In this document: positions 29,088 to 33,954 of the stretch, in pieces
Layout of the letters: the number at the start of each line of letters is the position of its first letter
How positions within the stretch are numbered: position 1 is the first letter of the stretch
Assembly: GCA_001464425.1 (NCBI GenBank)
Contig: LNEK01000026.1
Span: 62,001-126,000, forward strand
Length of the DNA: 64,000 bases
Origin: Alphaproteobacteria bacterium Ga0077535
GTDB taxonomy: Bacteria > Pseudomonadota > Alphaproteobacteria > Caulobacterales > Aquidulcibacteraceae
Direction of reading: 5' to 3'
Translations under genes and position numbers: made by a program
The notes under the pieces: model-generated
Seen by the model: only the letters and a program-made list of their open reading frames with translations
Database searches by the model: none
What the model was told of the DNA's origin: nothing

Positions 29088-29384
29088 ATGCTCAAAGCGC
29101 TTATTCTCATCGTCATCGTGGCCGTCGCCGCATACTTCACCAACCCGGCAGAAAGCGCATACAGCGATCCTGCGCGCGAAGTCCTGAGTGAAGCCGCGAG
29201 CGCTGATCTTGAGCAAGTCGATCTCGGTGGCGCTTTGGGCAACGCGGTCGCGACGCTCGGCGACGGCGAGTATCAAAGCTTCTACGTCGCCGGCAAATAT
29301 TCGCTCCCGAACGCGGCTGACGCGCGCGTTGAGTGCTGGGGCGCGTTCACGCTCGTCCAGTGCAACCGGACGGCAGCGTCTTAA
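29088..29384 (+). CDS. Small exported protein of unknown function
   Basis: 98 residues. A hydrophobic N-terminus (ALILIVIVAVAAYF) is a signal peptide or anchor; two Cys near the end (VECWGAFTLVQC). AGGGGACCCGACC precedes the ATG. The stop codon shares its bases with the convergent ATP-grasp fusion gene (TTAA at 29381-29384). Not recognised. Confidence 0.55.
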   Translation: MLKALILIVIVAVAAYFTNPAESAYSDPAREVLSEAASADLEQVDLGGALGNAVATLGDGEYQSFYVAGKYSLPNAADARVECWGAFTLVQCNRTAAS

Positions 29385-31489
29385 GCTGAAGCGATAGCAG
29401 GCGCCGCTTCGTCCGTCTTGGACGAAGCGCGCGCTTTCGCCGCCGCTTCAAGTCGGCGCTCTTCGCTGCGCGCGGCGGCTGCCTCAACCAGCGCTCTGAA
29501 CAAGCGCCGGAACGGCGCGCGGTAAATCAGAAATTCCGGATGGAATTGCACGCCCAGCCAAAAGCGCGGCGCCGGGTCTTCGATCGCCTGGATGACGCCA
29601 TTGGCTTCGCGCGCGCTGACCGTGAGGCCAACGCCGAGCCGATCAATCGCTTGGCTGTGGATCGCGTTGACCACCATCTCTTTTGAACACTTCGTCAGCT
29701 GCGCCAGCTTTGACTTGTAGCGCACGCGCACCGGGAAACGGTGGAAGAAGCGTTCGATAATGTGGTTGGGGCGCTTGGTTTCGAACTCGGAGAGGTCCGC
29801 GTGCAACGTGCCGCCTGCGAGCACGTTGAGCATCTGCGCGCCGCGGCACACGCCGAGCACCGGTAGGTCCAAGCGCCGCGCCGCCAGCGCCCAAGATGCT
29901 TCCATGTCGCCCCGCGCCAGATCGTAACGATAGCCAGGCTTCGGCTCGCCCTGGTAGCGCTTTGGGAAAACATCGGCGCCGCCGCCTAAGATGAGCCCGT
30001 CAATCGTGCGCGGATCGCGCGGCGCGCGCGCCGTCACTTTGATCGGATCGCCGCCCGCCAACCACACCGCCAGTTTCATCGCCAAGAACGCCAACGTATC
30101 GCCGCGCTCCGGCTTGGTGATGCCGATCACTGGTCGTGTGCGCGGCGGTGGCGGCTCGGCCGGGGCGCGCGCCGTATCGTCGGCTTCGTACGTCACTTCT
30201 GCTGGCAGCTTGCCGTGCCGCACCAGTGACGACAGCACAAAAAGCGCGCCCAGGCCCACCATCGGATCGTTTGCCGAAGAAAGCTCGCTCGGCGCGTCTT
30301 TCAAATCGCGCACTTCCTCGCGCAATTGCTTCACGGCGCCAGCAACGGCGAGCGTGTTGCCAAGCGCCTTGCCAGCATCGTCCAGCGCCGCCAGCAATTG
30401 CCCGGTCTTCATCCGCCGGTTCGCATTGCGCCATGCGCGCCGCGCTGCGTTGAAGTGCGGATCGGACGCCGCCACGTCTTCTATCGCCGCCAGCAACCAC
30501 GCGCCCGTCGTCTTCGTTGTCGAGCCGACTTCTGCTTCAGGCTCTTCCTCGAGCGGCAGCCCAATCGTCTGCGCATAGAGCAGCCACGGAAAATCGACGC
30601 CGGATTCGATAGAGTGAAAAATGCCCGCCCAGAAGCGCGCGTTCACTTCGATCAGCTTCGGCGCGTCCGTGGCCTCGCCGCTCCAGCGGAAATCGATCTC
30701 GGCGACGCCGTTCCAATTCGTCGCCGCGACCAGTTTTTCCGTCTCAGCGCGGAAGGGGGCGGCGTCCACCGTCTCGCGCACCGCGCCGGCGCCAGCCTCG
30801 CGCGGAAACGTCGTCACGTTGCGGTACGCCATGATGGCGGTGACTTTGCCGGCGTTCGCCAGCACAGCGACGCAATAATCCTCGCCCTCGATGCACTCCT
30901 GCACCAAAGGCGGCTCGTCAAAGCCAAGCGCCTCGGCTTGTTCGACAATTTCAGCTGGTGTCTTGGCGCAGGTGACGCCGCGCCCGCCAGCGCCATCGAC
31001 GGGCTTTACGATGCGAGGATAAATCAGCTTTGGCGCGCGCTCGCGCAATTCGTCCAGCGTCTCCGGCCGCCACGTCTCCGGAACGTCCAGGCCAAATTCT
31101 TCGGCAAGCTCTGCCAGCTTGTGCTTCGGCGTCACCCGCTCGATGCTCTTGATGTTCGGCGCCGCGAGCTTGATCGCCGGCTCAAACCGCTTTCGATTGC
31201 GGGTGATCAGGTCAATCTCGCGAAACACGGGCATCAGCACATAGGGGCGCCCATCGCGCGGCGCGTACTCGAGCACGGCAGCTTCCAGGTCCGTCAGAAA
31301 CTGCTCCGGCGCCGAGTCCCAGGGCGCGACCGTGAAGGTTTCCCGCACGTGCTTCGAGAACGAGAGCACCGTGAGGTTGACGTCATCGCAGCCGATAACC
31401 TCTACGCCCCGCTCGGCCAGCGAGCGGGCGATCACCAAAGCCATCAGGCTCCGGCCATAGGTAAGGATGACACGCCCCGGCTTACTCAT
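29381..31489 (-). CDS. Fusion of ATP-grasp ligase and peptidase C26 (glutamine amidotransferase-like) domain
   Basis: 702 residues. The N-terminal half (about 1-320) is an ATP-grasp enzyme: a PreATP-like opening (RVILTYGRSLMALVIARSLAERG), IVKPVDGAGGRGV for the ATP loop, VQECIEGEDYCV, and LIEVNARFWAG for metal binding. A linker of about 120 residues leads to a class I GATase-like domain of the PuuD/C26 type (about 450-665), with nucleophile Cys in GVCRGAQMLNVLAGG and His in VQFHPEF. Separately these are carboxylate-amine ligase and gamma-glutamyl hydrolase domains; joined they could make and trim a gamma-glutamyl or similar amide (inference). Start at 31489 by family fit; the tail is Ala/Arg/Lys rich. 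Confidence 0.8.
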   Translation of the reverse strand: MSKPGRVILTYGRSLMALVIARSLAERGVEVIGCDDVNLTVLSFSKHVRETFTVAPWDSAPEQFLTDLEAAVLEYAPRDGRPYVLMPVFREIDLITRNRKRFEPAIKLAAPNIKSIERVTPKHKLAELAEEFGLDVPETWRPETLDELRERAPKLIYPRIVKPVDGAGGRGVTCAKTPAEIVEQAEALGFDEPPLVQECIEGEDYCVAVLANAGKVTAIMAYRNVTTFPREAGAGAVRETVDAAPFRAETEKLVAATNWNGVAEIDFRWSGEATDAPKLIEVNARFWAGIFHSIESGVDFPWLLYAQTIGLPLEEEPEAEVGSTTKTTGAWLLAAIEDVAASDPHFNAARRAWRNANRRMKTGQLLAALDDAGKALGNTLAVAGAVKQLREEVRDLKDAPSELSSANDPMVGLGALFVLSSLVRHGKLPAEVTYEADDTARAPAEPPPPRTRPVIGITKPERGDTLAFLAMKLAVWLAGGDPIKVTARAPRDPRTIDGLILGGGADVFPKRYQGEPKPGYRYDLARGDMEASWALAARRLDLPVLGVCRGAQMLNVLAGGTLHADLSEFETKRPNHIIERFFHRFPVRVRYKSKLAQLTKCSKEMVVNAIHSQAIDRLGVGLTVSAREANGVIQAIEDPAPRFWLGVQFHPEFLIYRAPFRRLFRALVEAAAARSEERRLEAAAKARASSKTDEAAPAIASA

Positions 31490-31567
31490 GCGCTGCCAGA
31501 AATACCCGAGTCGGTATTTTGTTCCCGTATCGGAAACCACAGGGGGTCGCAAAACCCAGCAAGTTTT

Positions 31568-31581
31568 GCTATCTCAGCGCC
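31568..31581 (+). promoter_or_regulatory. Candidate -10 element for the Thr leader
   Basis: GCTATCTC (31568-31575) matches seven of eight positions of the Caulobacter housekeeping -10 consensus GCTANAWC. The leader ATG begins six bases later, where transcription would start, giving a leaderless message. The -35 region is not convincing. Confidence 0.4.
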
Positions 31582-31617
31582 ATGCGGCTTCTGACGACGA
31601 CTACGACTACCTATTAA
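31582..31617 (+). CDS. Threonine-rich leader peptide (putative attenuator) upstream of yidD-thrS
   Basis: An 11-codon ORF encodes [11 protein letters not shown]: six Thr codons in a row (ACG, ACG, ACT, ACG, ACT, ACC), then Tyr and TAA. A run of codons for the amino acid handled by the downstream gene is the hallmark of ribosome-mediated attenuation. The next genes, 80 bp downstream, are yidD and thrS. No ribosome binding site is seen, but a -10-like GCTATCTC six bases upstream suggests the message begins at the ATG, as for other alphaproteobacterial leader peptides such as trpL. A stem (GCGGCGCG/CGCGCCGC) follows the stop. No classical T-tract was seen. Confidence 0.7.
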
Positions 31618-31622
31618 AGCCG

Positions 31623-31647
31623 GCGGCGCGGGATCGGGCGCGCCGCA
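31623..31647 (+). promoter_or_regulatory. Hairpin after the Thr leader (candidate attenuator arm)
   Basis: GCGGCGCG and CGCGCCGC, separated by the eight bases GGATCGGG, form a strong 8-bp stem starting about six bases after the leader stop. It is followed by a second possible weaker stem around GGCAGCG/GCGCC. No T-run follows, so termination might be rho-dependent or the control might act on translation. Confidence 0.4.
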
Positions 31648-31696
31648 GCGGCAGCGTTTGCGCCCCGGTCAGATCAACCCAATCGTCAAAGTCATC

Positions 31697-32023
31697 ATGT
31701 CGCCGAGCCTGCCAGCCCGGGGCCTTTTGGGCCTCATCCAGCTTTACAAGTGGACGCTCTCGCCCCTGATCGGGCGCGATTGCCGCTACTTGCCGACATG
31801 CTCGTCCTACGCCGCCGACGCTATTCGCGCGCACGGCGCCTGGGCGGGCAGTTGGATGGCGGGCGCGCGCCTTTGCCGTTGCCACCCCTGGGGCGGCGCC
31901 GGCTGGGACCCCGTGCCCGCGACGGCTAGCGCGCCTTGGTACGCGCCCTGGCGCTATGGCGATTGGAAACGCGGCTATCGCGCGCCGCCCGAACACAGCG
32001 AATCCGATAAGAGCAATCCATGA
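31697..32023 (+). CDS. yidD: Membrane protein insertion efficiency factor YidD
   Basis: 108 residues. The YidD core is unmistakable: [32 protein letters not shown] followed by [13 protein letters not shown]. YidD is a small amphipathic inner-membrane protein helping YidC-dependent insertion. It ends with ATGA overlapping the thrS start by four bases, so it is translated together with thrS. Usually yidD sits by rnpA/yidC; linkage to thrS occurs in several alphaproteobacteria. Confidence 0.9.
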
Positions 32024-33954
32024 GCATCTCTCTCAAATTCCCCGATGGCGCCGAGCGTTCGTACGATGACGGCGTGACGCCGCTTGGCGTCGCAGAAGGC
32101 ATTTCCAAGTCCCTGGCCAAAAAGGTCGTCGCGGCCAAGATCGACGGCGCCTGGTGGGACCTGACGCGCCCGCTCGAAGGCGGCGGCAAGTTCGAACTTG
32201 TCATGCGCGATAGCGCCGATGGTCTTGAAGTGCTTCGCCACGACGCGGCGCACGTGCTTGCGCAAGCGGTGCAAGAGCTCTTCCCCGGCACGCAAGTCAC
32301 GTTCGGCCCGGTGACGGACGATGGCTTTTATTACGACTTCGCCCGCGACGAACCGTTCTCGACGGACGATTTCGAGAAGATCGAAAAGCGCATGCGCGAA
32401 ATCGTCGACGCCGATCTGCCGATCATCCGTAAAGTCTGGGAGAAAGAAGCCGCCATCGCGCACTTCAAGTCGATCGGCGAAATCTACAAAGCCGAGACGA
32501 TCGACGAAGTGATCAAGCCGGGCGACGCGATCACGGTCTATTCGCACGGCGATAAATGGGGCGATCTCTGCCGCGGCCCGCATTTGCCCTCAACGGGCAA
32601 GCTCGGCAAAGCCTTCAAGCTGATGAAGCTTGCCGGCGCCTATTGGCGCGGCGATCAGAAGAACCAGCAGCTGCAGCGCATCTACGGCACGGCTTGGGCC
32701 GACGAAAAGCAGCTCGAAGAGCATCTGCATCGCCTCGAAGAAGCCGAGAAGCGCGATCACCGCAAACTCGGCCGCCAGATGGATCTCTTCCACATGCAGG
32801 AAGAGGGGCGCGGCATGGTGTTCTGGCATGAGAAGGGCCTGACGCTGTGGCGCACGATCGAGGCCTACATGCGCCGTCGCTTGGATGCGGCCGGCTATGT
32901 CGAAGTGCGCACGCCGCAAGTGCTTGATCGCGTATTCTGGGAAAAGTCCGGACACTGGGACAAGTATCGCCCGAATATGTTTGTCTGCGAGACGGTGGAG
33001 GGCGAAACGCTTTCGCTGAAGCCGATGAACTGCCCGGGTCACGTGCAAATCTTCAAATTCGGCCAGAAGAGCTACCGCGATCTGCCGCTGCGCATGGCCG
33101 AGTTTGGCGCCTGCCATCGCTACGAACCTTCAGGGTCGTTGCACGGCCTCATGCGCGTGCGGGCGTTCACGCAGGACGATGCCCACATCTTCTGCCGCGA
33201 AGATCAGATCGAAGAAGAGACGACGCGCTTCATCCAACTCGCCAAATCCATCCACGCCGATTTCGGCATGGTGAGCGACAAGATCGCGCTCGCCACGCGC
33301 CCGGAAATGCGCGTCGGTTCCGACGAGTTCTGGGATAAGGCCGAAGCGCAAATGCTGAACGCCGCGCGCGCGGCGGGCGTCGAGCCGGTGATCGCGGAAG
33401 GCGACGGCGCTTTCTATGCGCCGAAGCTCGACTTCTCGGTGAAGGACGCCATCGGCCGCGAATGGACGATCGGCACGATCCAGCTCGACTATCAGCTGCC
33501 GGATCGTCTCGACGCGGAATATGTCGGCGAAGACGGCGCCAAGCACCGCCCGGTAATGCTCCACCGCGCGATCCTCGGCTCGCTCGAACGCTTCATCGGC
33601 ATTCTGATCGAAAACGTCGCCGGCACATTCCCGCTCTGGCTTTCGCCGGTGCAGGTCGTCGTCGCTACGATCACGTCAGATGCGAACGGCTACGCCGAAG
33701 ACGTCGCCGCCGCGATGCGCAAAGCCGGGCTCCGCGTCGAGACGGATCTGCGCAACGAGAAGGTCGGCTACAAAATCCGCGAACACTCGTTGCAGAAGAC
33801 GCCTGTGATCGCTGTCGTCGGCAAGAAGGAAGCGGAGAATCGCTCGGTCGCCATCCGCCGACTCGGCGGCGAGGCGCAGACGCTTCTCAGTCTCGACGAA
33901 GCAATCGCTTCGCTTGTCGAAGAGGCCAAGGCGCCGGACCTGAAGCGGGGCTGA
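32020..33954 (+). CDS. thrS: Threonyl-tRNA synthetase
   Basis: 644 residues with the whole domain set: N-terminal TGS domain (about 1-61), the editing/SAD domain containing [11 protein letters not shown] and DLCRGPHLP, the class II catalytic core ([11 protein letters not shown] zinc Cys; [20 protein letters not shown] motif 2), and the C-terminal anticodon-binding domain (about 545-640). It charges tRNA-Thr. The start ATG overlaps the yidD stop. A Thr-codon leader upstream points to control by charged tRNA-Thr. A strong stem-loop follows the stop. Confidence 0.97.

Follow-up and report, generated by a model that had tools for sequence, protein, structure and literature searches.

A threonine-codon leader and a predicted pseudoknot upstream of yidD-thrS in a family of Alphaproteobacteria

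There is strong evidence for a threonine-dependent cis-element in front of the yidD-thrS gene pair of the source genome, and the element is very probably real. It combines a short open reading frame (ORF) that ends in threonine codons with an RNA fold that begins directly behind its stop codon. Taken as a whole, the arrangement would probably act, albeit with some reserve on our part, as a translation-sensed RNA switch in cis to thrS, in which the ribosome gates a pseudoknot. The coordinates of its parts are given in Table 1 and refer to the window, i.e., the whole stretch of 64,000 nucleotides that was analysed.

Table 1. Parts of the putative regulatory element and the genes behind it (positions in the window)
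Feature	Position	Strand	Evidence and remarks
−10-like box TATCTC, putative promoter of a leaderless transcript	31570..31575	+	ends 6 nt before leader ATG; sequence
Leader peptide ORF, stop codon TAA at 31615-31617	31582..31617	+	sequence; conservation in relatives
Stem 1, 5' strand GCCGGCGGCGCG	31619..31630	+	starts 1 nt after stop codon; gap kept in 51/52
Stem 2, 5' strand GATCGGG, within the loop of stem 1	31632..31638	+	alignment, helix scan
Stem 1, 3' strand CGCGCCGC-(AG bulge)-CGGC	31639..31652	+	alignment
Stem 2, 3' strand CCCGGTC	31664..31670	+	pairs with 31632-31638; covarying
yidD, membrane protein insertion efficiency factor	31697..32023	+	ATG at 31697; Pfam YidD, 6.9e-27
thrS, threonyl-tRNA synthetase	32020..33954	+	Pfam TGS, tRNA_SAD, tRNA-synt_2b, HGTP_anticodon

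The preliminary description of this DNA had pointed to an ORF with six threonine codons upstream of yidD-thrS, and the codons indeed read ATG CGG CTT CTG ACG ACG ACT ACG ACT ACC TAT TAA, with all six Thr codons in succession. Among the 546 ATG-initiated ORFs of 7–30 amino acids on both strands of the window, 11 contain a run of at least four identical residues, and this leader is the only one in which the run is made of threonine. Among 1642 such ORFs from randomised DNA with matching base composition, none had a single-residue run of more than four. The more telling test is conservation in relatives (see below), by which the threonine leader before yidD-thrS is not due to chance. The reading frames of the two genes overlap by ATGA. 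The divergent gene on the minus strand (29381-31552) encodes a single protein with both an ATP-grasp and a Peptidase_C26/glutamine amidotransferase domain (Pfam). A short inverted repeat (AGCAA-GTT-TTGCT, 31558-31570) adjoins the −10 region; visual comparison with a set of relatives did not reveal it there.

The element is widespread in the family to which the source genome belongs. A YidD protein search of 60 family genomes (Terricaulis, Aquidulcibacter, Phycosocius, and kin) yielded a match in 54 and none in six. Reading of the upstream regions located the element in 52 of the 54 genomes with a match, in 51 cases before yidD and in one (G026) directly before thrS. In G026, the leader reads MAMRASIRSLTTT and yidD lies apart, approximately 1.5 kb further upstream, which indicates that the element goes with thrS. 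An ORF that, from its translation by eye, reads like a CoA-transferase separates yidD from the element and thrS in this genome (L157). Two family genomes, G016 and G027, have yidD next to thrS but lack the element. A covariance model search also found none in G010 and G030, two family genomes lacking a YidD match, with the thrS of G030 being matched only partly.

Threonine runs and compensatory stem changes in relatives, which had been proposed as a check on the element, were both found. In 51 of the 52 elements, including that of the source genome, a short ATG-initiated ORF is separated from the RNA fold by exactly 1 nt, and while leader length ranges from 9 to 23 amino acids, this gap between the stop codon and stem 1 stays the same. 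Threonine is the second-last residue in all 51 leaders, the third-last in 47, and the fourth-last in 35; at least three of the last seven residues are threonine in 42 leaders. Among the nine leaders of the Aquidulcibacter type (genus g2), seven end in LTTD, six contain only two threonines, and one contains only one. The element of G014 (L046) has Thr codons but no stop codon at the usual place, and its ORF continues through stem 1; in this draft assembly, the missing stop codon may be an error or a variant.

Codon choice at the end of the leader is uneven. The second-last codon is ACC in 34 leaders, ACT in 16, and ACG in one, whereas ACT accounts for 33 of the 47 Thr codons at the third-last position; ACC and ACT together make up 50 of 51 and 42 of 47 of the Thr codons at these sites. 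The opposite preferences of the two positions make some constraint at the nucleotide level possible, as would be expected if the leader ORF were untranslated and the run of ACN triplets were itself an RNA motif. Such a motif is very unlikely, because the start codon, the frame, and the stop codon are kept while the length of the ORF varies, because third codon positions vary, and because the invariant unit is Thr-x-stop, with a −10-like box before the ATG.

The leader transcript is likely leaderless, a proposal made earlier for the source genome that is strengthened by the recurrence of a −10-like box before the ATG in its relatives. The box lies 4–9 nt before the ATG in all 51 leaders (a best-hit choice), and the best hexamer begins with TA in 50 of them. 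As the start of each leader, the ATG preceded by the highest-scoring −10-like hexamer was chosen, and several leaders have in-frame alternatives; the mean hexamer score of 5.57, compared with 3.34 in shuffled upstream DNA, is therefore somewhat favoured by having been maximised also over alternative ATGs. In the source genome, the −35 region is weak (TCGCAA, three of six matches), and a simple scan for sigma-70-like promoters between 31400 and 31800 passed none. Many relatives have TTGAGC or GTGACA-like −35 boxes at a distance of 17–18 nt.

The GC-rich stem that the preliminary description had placed right behind the ORF does begin 1 nt past the stop codon but is not a simple stem. The predicted fold comprises a stem 1 of 12 bp and a stem 2 of 5–8 bp. 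As the two stems are built from separate strands, an H-type pseudoknot is the natural reading. From the conservation of both helices, there is good reason to expect that such a pseudoknot, reaching to 31670, forms after the leader stop codon.

Covariation was computed for an alignment (A1) of 47 of the 51 yidD-linked elements, from which L038 was omitted for an insertion and L042, L053, and L054 as near copies. Across its 46 distinct sequences, the observed values exceeded the means of 500 shuffles for paired cells in both helices (96.7% vs. 91.2%), pairs with double changes (8 vs. 4.1), double-change cells (37 vs. 6.9), and the covariation score (0.219 vs. 0.114, with slid controls far lower), although relatedness inflates all of these measures. 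None of the shuffles reached the observed value on any of them. Double changes occur in six of the seven pairs of stem 2 and in two of the 12 pairs of stem 1.

A stem 2 helix of at least 5 bp is present in all 52 elements and one of at least 6 bp in 49, with a mean of 6.9 bp as opposed to 4.8 bp for shuffled strands. Among the 45 elements with a listed junction, 43 have stem 2 directly abutting the 3' strand of stem 1, with zero bases between them, and the third loop measures 8–13 nt in 50 of the 52 elements. In the two exceptions (L036 and L037), the program took a wobble-rich register; reading of the sequences shows that they also contain a 6-bp register involving CCCAAA. RNAalifold, which is unable to show pseudoknots, predicted stem 1 alone, and the single-sequence fold of 31582-31700 was no more stable than that of shuffled sequences (z −0.43).

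The sequence of stem 1 is conserved beyond its pairing, even at the five loci of genus g8, which have a G+C content of 39–45%. Two or three bulged bases interrupt the 3' side of the stem. A bulged, apparently unpaired base next to CGGC (31648 and equivalents) is a G in 50 of the 52, hinting at a tertiary contact or a protein site. Such conservation would also be compatible with an operator in stem 1 to which ThrS or another protein binds, with the leader ORF only modulating access, and stem 1 begins with GCCG and ends with CGGC, as do six of the seven tRNA-Thr acceptor stems that were read. However, the likeness to tRNA extends over 4 bp and is not specific, and a protein operator would leave unexplained both the second-last threonine of every leader and the fixed gap of 1 nt, which renders it an improbable alternative. 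Mimicry of the tRNA-Thr acceptor stem, with its 4 bp of likeness, was set aside as no more than a weak lead.

Removal of the 5' strand of stem 1 (12 nt) turned the minimum-energy structure into a hairpin with at least five pairs between the loop and the downstream region in 52 of 52 elements. This hairpin is closed by the strands of stem 2 and has a mean energy of −21 kcal/mol. The same behaviour would be expected of a classical attenuator in which stem 1 serves as the antiterminator, the hairpin closed by the stem 2 strands terminates transcription despite lacking a good U-tract, and no pseudoknot exists in the cell; U-poor leaders have been reported from Streptomyces (PMC8079986) and Mycobacterium (PMC1262725). 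Such an attenuator is nevertheless unlikely. It does not account for the nearly constant pseudoknot geometry at the junction and in the third loop, and the two covarying helices, being formed by separate strands, are not necessarily mutually exclusive. Moreover, a U-tract is not conserved within the 60 nt behind stem 1 of the 52 elements, where the best 8-nt window contains six T in three elements, five in 20, and four or fewer in 29 (counts taken without a shuffled control). An intrinsic terminator was likewise not found on the plus strand between 31400 and 31800. The attenuation proposed in the preliminary description is thus not supported in its classical form, with neither a simple attenuator stem nor a terminator with a U-tract found.

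Since a U-tract terminator was not found, Rho-dependent termination is a first, tentative guess for the read-out of the switch. The region between the fold and the start codon contains 29% C and 20% G (values without a background control), and this preponderance of C over G is at most suggestive of a Rho site. Visual inspection of the sequence ahead of yidD revealed no conspicuous Shine-Dalgarno-like site.

The distance between the second-last Thr codon and the pseudoknot is 7 nt, i.e., the last sense codon, the stop codon, and one base (3 + 3 + 1). This spacing resembles that of H-type pseudoknots that cause programmed frameshifting, which also share a stem 1 of approximately 11–12 bp, a stem 2 of 6–7 bp, a short first loop, and a 7-nt spacer to the codon in the A site. 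In contrast to these, a slippery heptamer was not seen here, and no shifted frame is conserved, given that some relatives deviate by 1 nt in the length of their loops and that the spacing to yidD varies modulo 3; frameshifting on the leader is therefore hardly credible. Two related candidates were rejected for similar reasons: a conserved peptide in the −1 frame is broken by the differences in loop length, and a frame link between leader and yidD, although open in the source genome, is not compatible with the varying distance among relatives.

In the favoured mechanism, in which the ribosome gates the pseudoknot, transcription would start at or next to the ATG and yield a leaderless leader ORF, as suggested by the conserved −10 box. 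The ribosome would then read the leader, whose last Thr codons lie 7 and 10 nt before the predicted three-dimensional fold. Given the known ribosome footprint, a ribosome would touch no more than the edge of stem 1 while the second-last codon occupies its A site, but would cover approximately six to eight bases of the stem once the stop codon has moved there. If charged tRNA-Thr is short, the ribosome would stall on the Thr codons and get no further than the edge of the pseudoknot, which would stay intact. If charged tRNA-Thr is plentiful, the ribosome would proceed to the stop codon and take approximately 6–8 nt of stem 1 into the mRNA channel, and the downstream RNA may then refold into the different hairpin that was computed. 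The intact pseudoknot would permit and the refolded state would prevent expression of yidD-thrS, so that thrS would rise when its product is scarce. This polarity, with yidD-thrS on in the intact state and down in the refolded state, is suggested by physiology and is held with little more than even confidence.

The element in this form appears to be confined to the family. A covariance model (R1) built from 47 family sequences found it in 47 of 51 family genomes in a search of 249 genomes of the order, many of the family genomes being those it was trained on, and gave weak matches in three of the 198 other genomes (E 9.5e-4 to 9.5e-3). In a search of the class, the source genome matched strongly, and nine of 384 others matched weakly (E 1.2e-4 or more). 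On reading, neither the three weakly matching genomes of the order nor the nine of the class (10 loci) turned out to have a threonine leader with its stop codon 1 nt ahead of the stem, and four weak second matches in family genomes also lack one. A scan of named genomes with a DNA pattern retrieved 45 stretches, 34 from the family group by title and 11 from other groups. A stop codon 1 nt before the stem together with a second-last threonine was found in all 34 of the former but in none of the latter, although one of these happens to have a stop codon in the expected position. Among the named carriers are Aquidulcibacter paucihalophilus, Candidatus Phycosocius bacilliformis, a Terricaulis MAG, and Hyphomonadaceae MAGs; NCBI taxonomy places Terricaulis and Aquidulcibacter in Caulobacteraceae.

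Threonine leaders of other kinds were sought at 28 thrS loci in other orders of the class, which yielded a weak ORF at one locus (L108) and an ORF with five consecutive Thr codons at another (L111, genome G308). The latter, MRTHPVLRSTATTTTTATGGRWRMRA, is located 328 nt before thrS and is flanked by a TTGACA-like box upstream and a strong inverted repeat downstream; it is absent from 29 relatives in the family of G308 (30 of the 39 genomes searched were read) and was therefore not counted. In genus g15 of family f2, a different, leaderless-looking leader that ends in LTxRTRxGA/T is located between yidD and thrS in 14 of 14 genomes read (L144, L146, L170, L171, and L223-L232), and its last codons and stop codon pair with a downstream strand; it is possibly another threonine leader of independent design. 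In genus g29 of family f4 (L159, L160, L161, and L176), an ORF upstream of yidD that ends in TT/AT..TG or TT.LTG is followed by TAG and a GC-rich inverted repeat; this is either a candidate leader or the 3' end of an upstream gene.

The codon usage of thrS itself was compared with that of the leader. Among the Thr codons of thrS in the window, there are 26 ACG and one ACA but no ACC or ACT (0/27, compared with 339/761 in neighbouring ORFs; P 1.8e-7), the lowest share among 32 ORFs with at least 250 amino acids and at least 10 threonines. Ten of 12 element-bearing genomes have fewer ACC and ACT codons in thrS than in their own neighbouring ORFs (P<0.05), the exceptions being G047, with the leader MLRRLTDTITY, and G018. 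The same avoidance was found in seven of nine element-free genomes (G064, G072, G139, G066, G113, G016, and G347; not in G061 and G063), a sample in which G064 has a different leader and G347 was picked for its low value. The thrS genes of g2 and g8 contain many ACC and ACT codons. Because the bias is absent from some carriers and present in non-carriers, it is not diagnostic and was rejected as proof of the element.

Codons ACC and ACT are presumed to be read, through wobble, by tRNA-Thr with the anticodon GGU. In a scan of 30 tRNA loci, this tRNA was seen in G018 and G003, and one with the anticodon UGU was seen in the listed part of the source genome's set. Isoacceptor tRNAs are, in theory, selectively charged when their amino acid is limiting, and the codon pattern of thrS fits such selective charging, although it is not specific to the pseudoknot element. 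It is conceivable, though this goes considerably further than the switch as such, that the element represents a new attenuator class in which the ribosome gates a pseudoknot 1 nt past the stop codon without a terminator, and which is tuned to one isoacceptor through the ACC and ACT codons of the leader, with thrS cleared of these codons and still translatable when that tRNA is uncharged.

Several known systems share individual features with the element. Classical ribosome-mediated attenuators, such as those of thr, trp, and pheST in Escherichia coli, also combine a leader peptide of cognate codons with a downstream RNA structure; unlike in these, a terminator with a U-tract is lacking here, and the two helices form a predicted pseudoknot 1 nt past the stop codon. 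The T-box riboswitch of Firmicutes senses tRNA charging for aminoacyl-tRNA synthetase genes as well, but in the present case sensing would occur through an apparent ORF. In E. coli, ThrS binds an operator with anticodon-like loops in its own mRNA, so that thrS is likewise controlled at its own leader RNA, whereas here an ORF with Thr codons is the apparent sensor. A T-box or another known RNA family was rejected, because no Rfam family matched 31300-32100 at E≤1, and six element loci gave no Rfam match at gathering score.

One of the two closest parallels is the leaderless thrL predicted before thrS in Streptomyces lividans (PMC8079986), which is also a short ORF with Thr codons; one hairpin and no U-rich tract are reported in the available parts of that paper. 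A threonine leader on thrS, which the preliminary description had regarded as a distinct solution if present in this group, is therefore not entirely unprecedented, but the open-access literature searched contains no threonine leader or pseudoknot before thrS in Alphaproteobacteria. The thrL of this actinobacterium differs in its peptide (MKRVRPFLETTPGFVPAR, with two internal threonines and no Thr-x-stop end), and the available description includes no pseudoknot, no 1-nt spacing from the stop codon, and no yidD (PMC8079986). The other, the LEU element before leuA in Actinobacteria (PMC1262725), also couples a leader ORF containing successive cognate codons to a conserved pseudoknot but concerns leucine and leuA; according to the part of the report available, its authors find leader translation unlikely as the mechanism, because mutations of the leucine codons were without effect. 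Among Alphaproteobacteria, the available parts of the respective papers describe a leaderless trpL in Sinorhizobium meliloti, which shares the leaderless start, together with a candidate leader rich in threonine and lysine (SEP5; PMC10117765), and leader ORFs before trpS and ilvIH in Caulobacter crescentus (PMC4117421). The accessible portion of a survey of premature terminators contains nothing on a threonine leader before thrS (PMC2965389). With its features predicted from sequence, the thrS element is rated as a new variant of ribosome-mediated attenuation.

The leader and its putative pseudoknot would represent a compact design, conserved throughout the family, that replaces the pair of antiterminator and terminator by a leader peptide together with a pseudoknot. 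To our knowledge, little is known about the control of aminoacyl-tRNA synthetase genes outside the textbook cases, namely the T-boxes of Firmicutes and, in E. coli, the operator bound by ThrS. The codon pattern of thrS may offer a natural case for the selective charging of tRNA isoacceptors, and the precise geometric rule of the element (Thr codon, 7 nt, pseudoknot) makes the design directly testable by mutants.
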